The notes under the pieces are model-generated. The model did no database searches. It was not told where the DNA came from and saw only the letters and a list, made by a program, of their open reading frames with translations. From Nitrososphaerota archaeon (GTDB lineage Archaea; Thermoproteota; Nitrososphaeria; Nitrososphaerales; Nitrosopumilaceae): a DNA stretch of 64,000 nt. The position numbers were made by a program, and so were the translations under genes. The stretch spans positions 115,198 through 179,197 of the forward strand of contig JAGWHQ010000001.1 of assembly GCA_028866655.1 (NCBI GenBank). The letters are read 5' to 3'. This document shows, piece after piece, positions 14,130-16,378 of the stretch (the stretch's first letter is position 1; every line of letters begins with the position of its first letter).

Positions 14130-15917
14130 GTGTTAAAATTTCAAAATAAGATCATAGTAATTACAGGAAGTGGAACTGGCATAGGAAAGGCAATAGCCAT
14201 GAAATTTGCTGAAAATGGTGCAAACATTGTCATTTTAGGAAGAAGAAAAGAACCCCTAGAAGAAGCAGCAAAAGAACTCGAACAAGTAATTTCTTCAGTA
14301 AAGAGTAATTCGTTTGTAAAAATCTTTCCAGGTGTTGATGTAAGCGATGAGGAAGGAGTCTCAAAGATGTTCGAAGATCTCAAAAAATCACATGGTGCAG
14401 TTGATATTGTAGTAAATAATGCAGGAGTCTCAGGACCTGTTACTTGTTTTGCAAATTCTCCAATCTCTGAATTTAAGAGCACAGTTGGAATTCACCTCAC
14501 AGGTACATTTTGGACATCATCTCAAGCAATCAAGACAATGAAGCCAGGTTCCAAGATAGTTACAATATCCACATTCTTTACAGAAGAGCGACCATACGAA
14601 CAAAGACCATACAGGTTTAGAAGTCCATACACTGCATCCCAAGGAGCAAAGAATAGACTTGCAGAGGCCATGTCATGGGAAATTACGGACAAGAAAATCA
14701 TATCAATTGCAACAAATCCAGGACCTGTCCATTCTGACCGAATTTACAAAACAGTATATCCAAAAGCAGCAGCAGAATTTATGAGAGTAAGCGGTTTTGA
14801 AAACATCACACCTGAAGAAGTTGAATCAGTAAACAATGACATACTCCCATTGCTTGGAGAAGATGAAAAAACAGTAAAAGAAGGAATTGTAAAAGCAGCA
14901 GCTAAACTTGCAAAATTAAAATCAATTACATCAGAATCAGACATAGAAAAACTTGGCAATACGATTTCTGCACTGCTTGCAAAGATACAACAGATTGCAG
15001 AAAAAGTCCAGAACAATACAAGCAAGATGATTGCAGATGAACAATTTCTTACACAACAACAAGTTGCAGAAACAGTTCTGATGCTAAGTGATGACAACAT
15101 TGCACAGATTCTAAATGGTAAGGTAATACCTGGTGACCGTGTATTTTATCCAGTCAAGCCACATATCGCGTGTTCCATACCAGAAGTACAACCAAACTTT
15201 AGTTCTAAAATAACAGTATTTGCCCTTGATGCAACAGACGAATCAGATGTAGTAAGAGCAGAACACTTGGCACAAAAAATAGAGAGTGCAGGAGGAAAGA
15301 CAGTGATATTGATTTCAAAGACTAGTCCCAAAGTTGCAGAAGAAAGACTGGCAAAGTTCCATTCTCACGTGATGGACATAACAAGCCAAGAAAACGTAAA
15401 AAGAATGTTAAACACTGCAACACAAAAAGTTGGGCCAATTGGCAATGTAATCTACATGACAGGTAAGGTTCCCCAAGTAGGCAAGCTAGTTGACTTGGCA
15501 AGAAAAGACTGGGACAGTCTAGTTGACAAGTTCATAAACACTCCAGCCATTTTCATGCAGGAATCACTTGGCATATTTGTTCCAGGAGGAGCAAAGAATC
15601 CACCACTTTTCAAGGGCAAGGATGGCAACATGATAATCATAGGACCTGACATGCCAGCAGGGGGCAAGACAACTGGTGCAGACAGGGCAAGAGTTGAAGT
15701 ATTCAGGGGCGCCCTCAGACCATTTGCGACAACTGTGAACCAAGAGCTAAGTGATGTATTAAAATCAAAACTTCGAATGTACTTGGTGCTCCCAGGAAGT
15801 GTAGAAGGTACAGAATCAAGCAATGACAACATCATGAAAGCAATCAATTATCTTACATCTGGAAAATCAATAAGCAATGCAGAAATAATTTACTATCCAG
15901 ACGAAACAAGATCCTGA
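14130..15917 (+). CDS. Tandem short-chain dehydrogenase/reductase (two SDR-like domains)
   Basis: GTG start; N-half TGSGTGIGKAIA, NNAGVSG, YTASQGAKNR, NPGPVHSDRI; C-half Rossmann-like ALDATDESDVVRAEHLAQKIESAGGKTVILIS... Confidence 0.88.
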   Translation: MLKFQNKIIVITGSGTGIGKAIAMKFAENGANIVILGRRKEPLEEAAKELEQVISSVKSNSFVKIFPGVDVSDEEGVSKMFEDLKKSHGAVDIVVNNAGVSGPVTCFANSPISEFKSTVGIHLTGTFWTSSQAIKTMKPGSKIVTISTFFTEERPYEQRPYRFRSPYTASQGAKNRLAEAMSWEITDKKIISIATNPGPVHSDRIYKTVYPKAAAEFMRVSGFENITPEEVESVNNDILPLLGEDEKTVKEGIVKAAAKLAKLKSITSESDIEKLGNTISALLAKIQQIAEKVQNNTSKMIADEQFLTQQQVAETVLMLSDDNIAQILNGKVIPGDRVFYPVKPHIACSIPEVQPNFSSKITVFALDATDESDVVRAEHLAQKIESAGGKTVILISKTSPKVAEERLAKFHSHVMDITSQENVKRMLNTATQKVGPIGNVIYMTGKVPQVGKLVDLARKDWDSLVDKFINTPAIFMQESLGIFVPGGAKNPPLFKGKDGNMIIIGPDMPAGGKTTGADRARVEVFRGALRPFATTVNQELSDVLKSKLRMYLVLPGSVEGTESSNDNIMKAINYLTSGKSISNAEIIYYPDETRS

Positions 15918-16378
15918 TGAAAAGGTTTTCAGAACTAAATGTCGGAGACAAGTTTTATTCAGAATGCACCATATCTTCTACAGAACTTGATGCATATCTT
16001 TTGTTTTCAGGAATTAAAAACATCATTTATGAAAACACCAAATCAAGTCAGGAAAAAAAGATGGTCTCAGGCAGAGCCATACTTTCAAAGATGGAAGGAG
16101 AATTTACAAGGCTAGAAGAGATGTATGGTAACCTCTTAATCTTCTATGGAATTGATGGAGACTCTGACTGGAACAACAGACAGACAAGATTTCTAAAACC
16201 CCTACATACAGGAGACAAATTAAAGATAAAATTCACAATATCTGAAAAACGTGAGATCAATGATGAATTTGGCTTGATTGGAATAGATTTTGAAGGAAAG
16301 GATGAAGATGGAAAAACAATGGTAATTTCAAAAAGAAATCTTTATCAAATTAAAAAGGACCCACCAGTGCATCAGTAA
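15917..16378 (+). CDS. MaoC/hotdog-like protein, overlapping the SDR stop codon
   Basis: FSELNVGDKFYSECTISSTELDAY...FLKPLHTGDKLKIKFTISEKRE. Confidence 0.65.
   Translation: MKRFSELNVGDKFYSECTISSTELDAYLLFSGIKNIIYENTKSSQEKKMVSGRAILSKMEGEFTRLEEMYGNLLIFYGIDGDSDWNNRQTRFLKPLHTGDKLKIKFTISEKREINDEFGLIGIDFEGKDEDGKTMVISKRNLYQIKKDPPVHQ

Follow-up and report, generated by a model that had tools for sequence, protein, structure and literature searches.

Which protein reduces malonyl-CoA in the carbon-fixation cycle of ammonia-oxidizing archaea (AOA)? Malonyl-CoA reductase (MCR) was counted among four unidentified enzymes of N. maritimus in 2018, and the succinyl-CoA reductase and acryloyl-CoA reductase genes were likewise without assignment (PMC6038301). 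The AOA enzyme was later described as not findable by sequence comparison (PMC6964070, 2020), and no MCR marker is given for the AOA cycle in a recent account (PMC12894919, 2026). These three papers bear out a preliminary description of the present DNA, which had stated that a clear gene assignment was lacking. In Ca. N. cavascurensis, no homologue of the Chloroflexus MCR was found, and SDRs about 30% identical to that enzyme were named as candidate malonic semialdehyde reductases (PMC5797428, 2018); the gene considered here may therefore already sit in the supplementary list of that paper. Our search of openly searchable papers found no assignment of this gene to MCR. Here, we analyze the gene, which encodes a tandem-SDR protein, in a 64,000-nucleotide stretch of archaeal DNA (the window) and propose that its product is a homologue of one MCR half with an altered active site and, at roughly even odds (about 0.5), the missing malonyl-CoA reductase of AOA.

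Locus and domain organization

The tandem-SDR gene starts with GTG, and an alignment shows ATG at this place in its homologues. The reading frame is real, as there are 50 distinct full-length homologues with 45-100% identity. Its stop codon and the start codon of the following hotdog gene overlap by one base (TGATG). The features of both genes are listed in Table 1.

Table 1. Positions in the window of the tandem-SDR gene, its parts and the adjoining frames.
Feature	Position	Strand	Remarks and basis
MCR-half-like tandem SDR protein, 595 aa	14130..15917	+	GTG start; order: SDR, helical insert, degenerate SDR
Domain 1 (aa 1-215), catalytic-type SDR, nearest MCR SDR3/SDR1	14130..14774	+	hhalign, tree
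Invariant TGSGTGIG (aa 12-19) for nucleotide binding; G37-R38-R39 after it is also invariant	14163..14186	+	alignment
Thr148, position of Roseiflexus MCR catalytic Ser731 (MCR-C) / Thr165 (MCR-N)	14571..14573	+	alignment; roles from PMC10470521
YRFRSPY (aa 161-167), YxxRxxY malonate-binding motif; Y161/R164/Y167 invariant	14610..14630	+	alignment; role from PMC10470521
Gln171, where SDRs have the catalytic lysine (Lys753 in Roseiflexus); invariant 50/50	14640..14642	+	alignment
Lys174 at Tyr+7, invariant 50/50	14649..14651	+	alignment
PGPVHSDRI (aa 197-205); Arg204 = Roseiflexus Arg785 / Chloroflexus Arg773	14718..14744	+	alignment; PMC10470521
Helical insert (aa ~216-308), located where MCR-C has its extra domain	14775..15053	+	AlphaFold2 helices 203-300
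Domain 2 (aa ~346-595), degenerate Rossmann/SDR without glycine motif	15165..15914	+	Pfam, AlphaFold2, hhalign
Hotdog (MaoC fold) protein, 153 aa, without hydratase Asp/His dyad	15917..16378	+	Foldseek, alignment
Small divergent ORF, 124 aa	13372..13746	-	adjoins the SDR gene
Small divergent ORF, 78 aa	13750..13986	-	adjoins the SDR gene

The preliminary description had read the protein as a full SDR followed by a degenerate second half, and it had quoted four motifs. Both observations hold: TGSGTGIGKAIA, NNAGVSG, YTASQGAKNR and NPGPVHSDRI are all present, and Pfam adh_short covers residues 7-203 (E 1.7e-40). A second, weak match to adh_short_C2 (25 bits, below the cut-off) at positions ~15258-15590 marks the second half as a degenerate SDR. 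The hotdog protein has the MaoC/R-hydratase fold (Foldseek: 1q6w, E 2.3e-8; PhaJ, 1.1e-7), and an alignment of 20 homologues revealed no Asp/His dyad (Asp-x4/5-His), as had been noted from the sequence. In a sigma-70 scan, promoter-like sites were no commoner than chance. Both small divergent ORFs keep their position in many AOA; the 124-aa one had no match in Pfam or NCBIfam.

Relationship to malonyl-CoA reductase

An AlphaFold2 model of the 595-aa protein, built on 30 AOA homologues (mean pLDDT 89, pTM 0.89), was compared with 350,542 PDB chains using Foldseek. Ranks 1-25 were all MCR, with C-terminal-half structures on top (best match 8j2b, E 1.2e-26, TM 0.75 by query), N-terminal halves after them (6k8v, E 2.2e-24) and full-length chains interspersed. 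Rank 26 was a single-domain SDR (E 3e-14), and the unbroken run of MCR structures before it indicates that the tandem architecture is specifically that of an MCR half. The predicted model has the fold order of MCR-C, a catalytic SDR with an inserted extra domain and a degenerate SDR. The protein is not a full bifunctional MCR, a chain of ~1220 aa with four SDR domains in two catalytic halves; its 595 aa correspond to one half.

In a phmmer search against PDB sequences, full-length MCRs again came out on top (E 6e-35, a score summed over the two domains), and the best non-MCR entry reached 2e-19. Profile-profile comparison matched the 595-aa family to MCR-C over 492 columns (E 3.5e-24) and to MCR-N with E 9.9e-23. 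For domain 1, hhalign scores were 182 to SDR3 and 168 to SDR1, compared to 180 between SDR1 and SDR3 themselves. The domain-1 score alone was rejected as proof of kinship, since glucose dehydrogenase scores as well (92.5 bits in a PDB profile search, versus 81 bits for SDR3). The helical insert showed no sequence similarity to the extra domain of MCR-C (E 0.04). A specific identity of domain 2 with SDR4 was also rejected, because its hhalign resemblance is slightly greater to SDR3/SDR1 than to SDR4/SDR2.

A tree of 85 SDR domains, 55 of them other SDRs and among these the 16 closest single SDRs from archaea, placed AOA domain 1, SDR1 and SDR3 in one clade (support 98/91). Within this clade, grouping with SDR1 and grouping with SDR3 were equally compatible with the data (AU p 0.42 for each); a sister relationship to SDR1 seen in a first tree (98/86) was not reproduced with closer outgroups. 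The earlier impression of a resemblance to one half of the Chloroflexus-type MCR, for which an HMM and structure comparison with both halves had been suggested, is thus supported by structure, phylogeny and motifs.

Active-site residues

Residue roles were taken from the Roseiflexus MCR structure paper (PMC10470521). Tyr743, Arg746, Tyr749 and Arg785 of the Roseiflexus enzyme correspond to the invariant Tyr161, Arg164, Tyr167 and Arg204 of the AOA protein, Arg616 and Asp651 to Arg38 and Asp70, and Ser731 to Thr148, a threonine as in SDR1. The motifs YxxRxxY and PGPxx[SG][DE]R (PGPVxSDR in the AOA protein) are shared with SDR1 and SDR3 of MCR and occur in 0/59 other SDRs compared. An insert of 5-6 residues between Ser/Thr and Tyr is common to AOA domain 1 and SDR3 only.

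The MCR-C triad Ser731-Tyr749-Lys753 is not matched. Its place is taken by Thr148-Tyr167-Gln171, and the lysine is lost in all 50 homologues; the alignment has no gaps here and puts Tyr167 on the classical SDR tyrosine and Gln171 on the lysine. As the K753A exchange abolishes the activity of Roseiflexus MCR (PMC10470521), Gln171 has to be regarded as the failure of a defining feature. For that enzyme, the pair Tyr743-Arg746 was proposed as proton source of the acyl-CoA reduction step, and a lysine relay was proposed for alcohol formation (PMC10470521). In our own reading of these proposals, loss of the lysine would therefore weigh less against acyl-CoA reduction than against alcohol formation. 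The remaining domain-1 residues that could be recognised as part of the active site do not vary among four families of AOA. Of the residues that bind malonyl-CoA outside SDR3, Arg799 in the extra domain has a plausible match in Arg219, and Arg1164 in SDR4 aligns with a residue other than Arg, the alignment being uncertain there.

Distribution and gene neighbourhood

Among 151 genomes of the order, the tandem-SDR gene was found in all 74 AmoA-positive genomes (in one as a contig-edge fragment), which answers the earlier suggestion to check its conservation across autotrophic thaumarchaea. Two more AOA assemblies have the gene but gave no AmoA match, and the remaining 75, non-AOA genomes have neither the gene nor AmoA. 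Full-length homologues are confined to four families; families with 4-hydroxybutyryl-CoA dehydratase but without AmoA do not have the gene. It was again restricted to AOA families in a phylum-wide sample of 300 genomes, a complete AOA genome of only 1.2 Mb (G096) retains it, and plasmid and viral collections contained no full-length homologue. Because AOA are close kin, co-occurrence with AmoA counts as one evolutionary event, indicating an AOA core gene and not repeated co-gain. The source assembly (1.42 Mb, 94.6% complete) belongs to an AOA family by its relatives. No AmoA match was found in it, probably owing to an assembly gap or incompleteness.

In Nitrosopumilaceae, the hotdog gene directly follows the tandem-SDR gene, with the exception of one genome without it (G084); at the loci inspected in other families it does not. 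Most AOA of these other families have no hotdog gene at this site or none in the whole genome. The gene is thus lineage-restricted, and the idea that its product is an obligate partner of the tandem SDR was rejected, as many AOA keep the SDR gene alone. Some Nitrososphaeraceae have a distant hotdog copy elsewhere in the genome. Of two such copies (G107:C171:1766-2218 and G056:C1:1039867-1040311), one has ten stop codons and the other is split; both are apparently decaying.

Across AOA, the neighbours of the tandem-SDR gene tend to be housekeeping genes (tRNA-splicing endonuclease, TauE-type transporter, homoserine dehydrogenase), and no genes of the carbon-fixation cycle were recognised beside it at these loci. 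Support for a function from an operon or neighbourhood was therefore dismissed; the conserved housekeeping synteny speaks for vertical inheritance.

Competing genes were also considered. AOA genomes generally encode two PF02774 proteins, which in two genomes checked were ArgC and aspartate-semialdehyde dehydrogenase (ASD), leaving no spare MCR paralogue of the Sulfolobales type. The aldehyde dehydrogenase family is absent from three AOA genomes that are at least 98% complete (G076, G096, G138), so that succinyl-CoA reductase must be of another kind there as well. A malonic semialdehyde reductase of N. maritimus is already known, Nmar_1110, an iron-type ADH and thus of another family. With this step already accounted for, malonyl-CoA reduction is a better guess for the tandem-SDR protein than malonic semialdehyde reduction. 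Iron-ADHs of this type seem to be absent from two AOA families that retain the MCR-half gene, Nitrosocaldaceae and another deep family (f2 and f3; G001, G002, G018, G019, G030, G039, G047), in agreement with PMC5797428 for Nitrosocaldus.

Discussion

The fold of the predicted model, the kinship, the motifs and the distribution link the tandem-SDR protein to MCR and to AOA. From these we infer its substrate, direction and cofactor as well as roles for Gln171 and Lys174. Domain 1 would bind NADPH and, via Tyr161/Arg164/Tyr167, Thr148 and Arg204, the malonyl end. The CoA pocket, which in MCR-C is closed by the extra domain and SDR4, would here be closed by the helical insert and the degenerate domain 2. 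Attack of hydride on the thioester carbonyl side would yield malonic semialdehyde and CoA, with the thiolate receiving its proton from the pair Tyr161-Arg164, the role put forward for Tyr743-Arg746 in Roseiflexus. Malonic semialdehyde would then pass to a separate reductase, the iron-type ADH of the Nmar_1110 family where present. More tentatively, and with somewhat less than an even chance, AOA may fix carbon through a half-size, lysine-less SDR-type MCR that is sister to both bacterial halves and in which the catalytic tetrad is rearranged (Gln at Tyr+4, Lys at Tyr+7). Such an enzyme would be a present-day single-half counterpart of the Chloroflexus MCR, which is duplicated and fused, and might accept succinyl-CoA as well as malonyl-CoA.

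The preliminary description had suggested reduction of malonyl-CoA or malonic semialdehyde. This is favoured by the MCR kinship and the conservation in AOA; against it stand the exchange of Lys for Gln in every homologue and Arg1164, which has no clear equivalent. The glutamine at the position of the catalytic lysine in all 50 homologues is the strongest objection. Judged by sequence, the higher score of glucose dehydrogenase than of SDR3 for domain 1 and the lack of specific kinship of domain 2 with SDR4 count against an MCR as well. So do the housekeeping neighbours, none of which belongs to the cycle, and the single evolutionary event to which the co-occurrence with AmoA amounts.

Two alternatives stay close to the same chemistry. 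Rather improbably, the protein would reduce succinyl-CoA along with malonyl-CoA, or mainly succinyl-CoA, to the semialdehyde. That gene is likewise without assignment (PMC6038301), the three genomes without aldehyde dehydrogenase need an unusual enzyme for this step too, and carboxylate binding by YxxRxxY would suit any short dicarboxylyl-CoA. However, all solved relatives of the tandem fold are malonyl-CoA enzymes, and nothing in the 595-aa sequence tells a C3 from a C4 substrate. It is unlikely that the protein is an MCR-N-like malonic semialdehyde reductase or reduces another short oxo-acid or aldehyde: kinship to SDR1 equals that to SDR3, Thr148 is as in SDR1, the iron-ADH is missing in two families, and the SDRs ~30% identical to Chloroflexus MCR were named as candidates in PMC5797428, but the SDR1 mechanism depends on the very lysine that is lost, the SDR3-type loop insert and the large insert are MCR-C-like, and lineages with Nmar_1110 also retain the tandem-SDR gene.

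Further readings depart from MCR chemistry. Tyr167 and Lys174 have Tyr-x6-Lys spacing, which is that of FabI-type enoyl reductases. An enoyl-thioester reductase, for example the acryloyl-CoA reductase whose gene is also unassigned (PMC6038301), is nevertheless quite improbable given the gapless placement of Tyr167 and Gln171 on the classical residues, and no FabI-type structure was among the top 50 Foldseek matches. The overlapping frames of the tandem-SDR and hotdog genes in Nitrosopumilaceae, and the sequence match to the yeast MFE-2 tandem SDR (2et6, E 2e-19), recall a split MFE-2 acting on (R)-3-hydroxyacyl-CoA or in polyhydroxyalkanoate or lipid metabolism. We give this little credence, as the hotdog protein has no dyad, many AOA keep the SDR gene without it, MFE-2 is not among the top 50 structural matches and the catalytic lysine is missing. 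Loss of that lysine in all homologues would also fit a former MCR half that binds NADPH but is regulatory or has no catalytic activity; the invariance of the other recognised domain-1 active-site residues across four families makes this very improbable.

Reduction of malonyl-CoA thus remains our preferred reading. It offers a strong, directly testable candidate for a missing carbon-fixation step of very abundant archaea, since only one conserved gene is involved, its product has a clear structural relative, and one expression-and-assay experiment can put it to the test. If the reading is true, one protein family would underlie the 3-hydroxypropionate chemistry of both archaea and Chloroflexus, and synthetic production of 3-hydroxypropionate would gain a compact MCR.

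Comparison with known systems

The malonyl-CoA/succinyl-CoA reductase of Sulfolobales (K15017, an ASD paralogue) is alike only in the proposed reaction; its fold, a PF02774 semialdehyde dehydrogenase, is unrelated. Yeast MFE-2 (2et6) also has two SDR domains in tandem, but its sequence score is weaker than that of MCR and it lies outside the top structural matches. The N-terminal half of MCR (SDR1-SDR2; 6k8v, 8hi6) shares the tandem of SDR and degenerate SDR, YxxRxxY, Thr in place of Ser and a counterpart motif, PGPIxSER. It scores lower than the C-terminal half in structure and profile and, unlike the AOA protein, has the lysine and a smaller insert and lacks the Ser-Tyr loop insert. The C-terminal half (SDR3-ED-SDR4 of Chloroflexus and Roseiflexus; 8j2b, 8hi5; Caur_2614) differs from the AOA protein, which stands alone with 595 aa instead of being fused, is ~23% identical, has Gln at the Lys753 position and Arg1164 unmatched, and carries a shorter insert unrelated in sequence. 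Nevertheless, this half is the best structural match, with the same domain order, YxxRxxY, PGPVxSDR and the Ser-Tyr loop insert in common.
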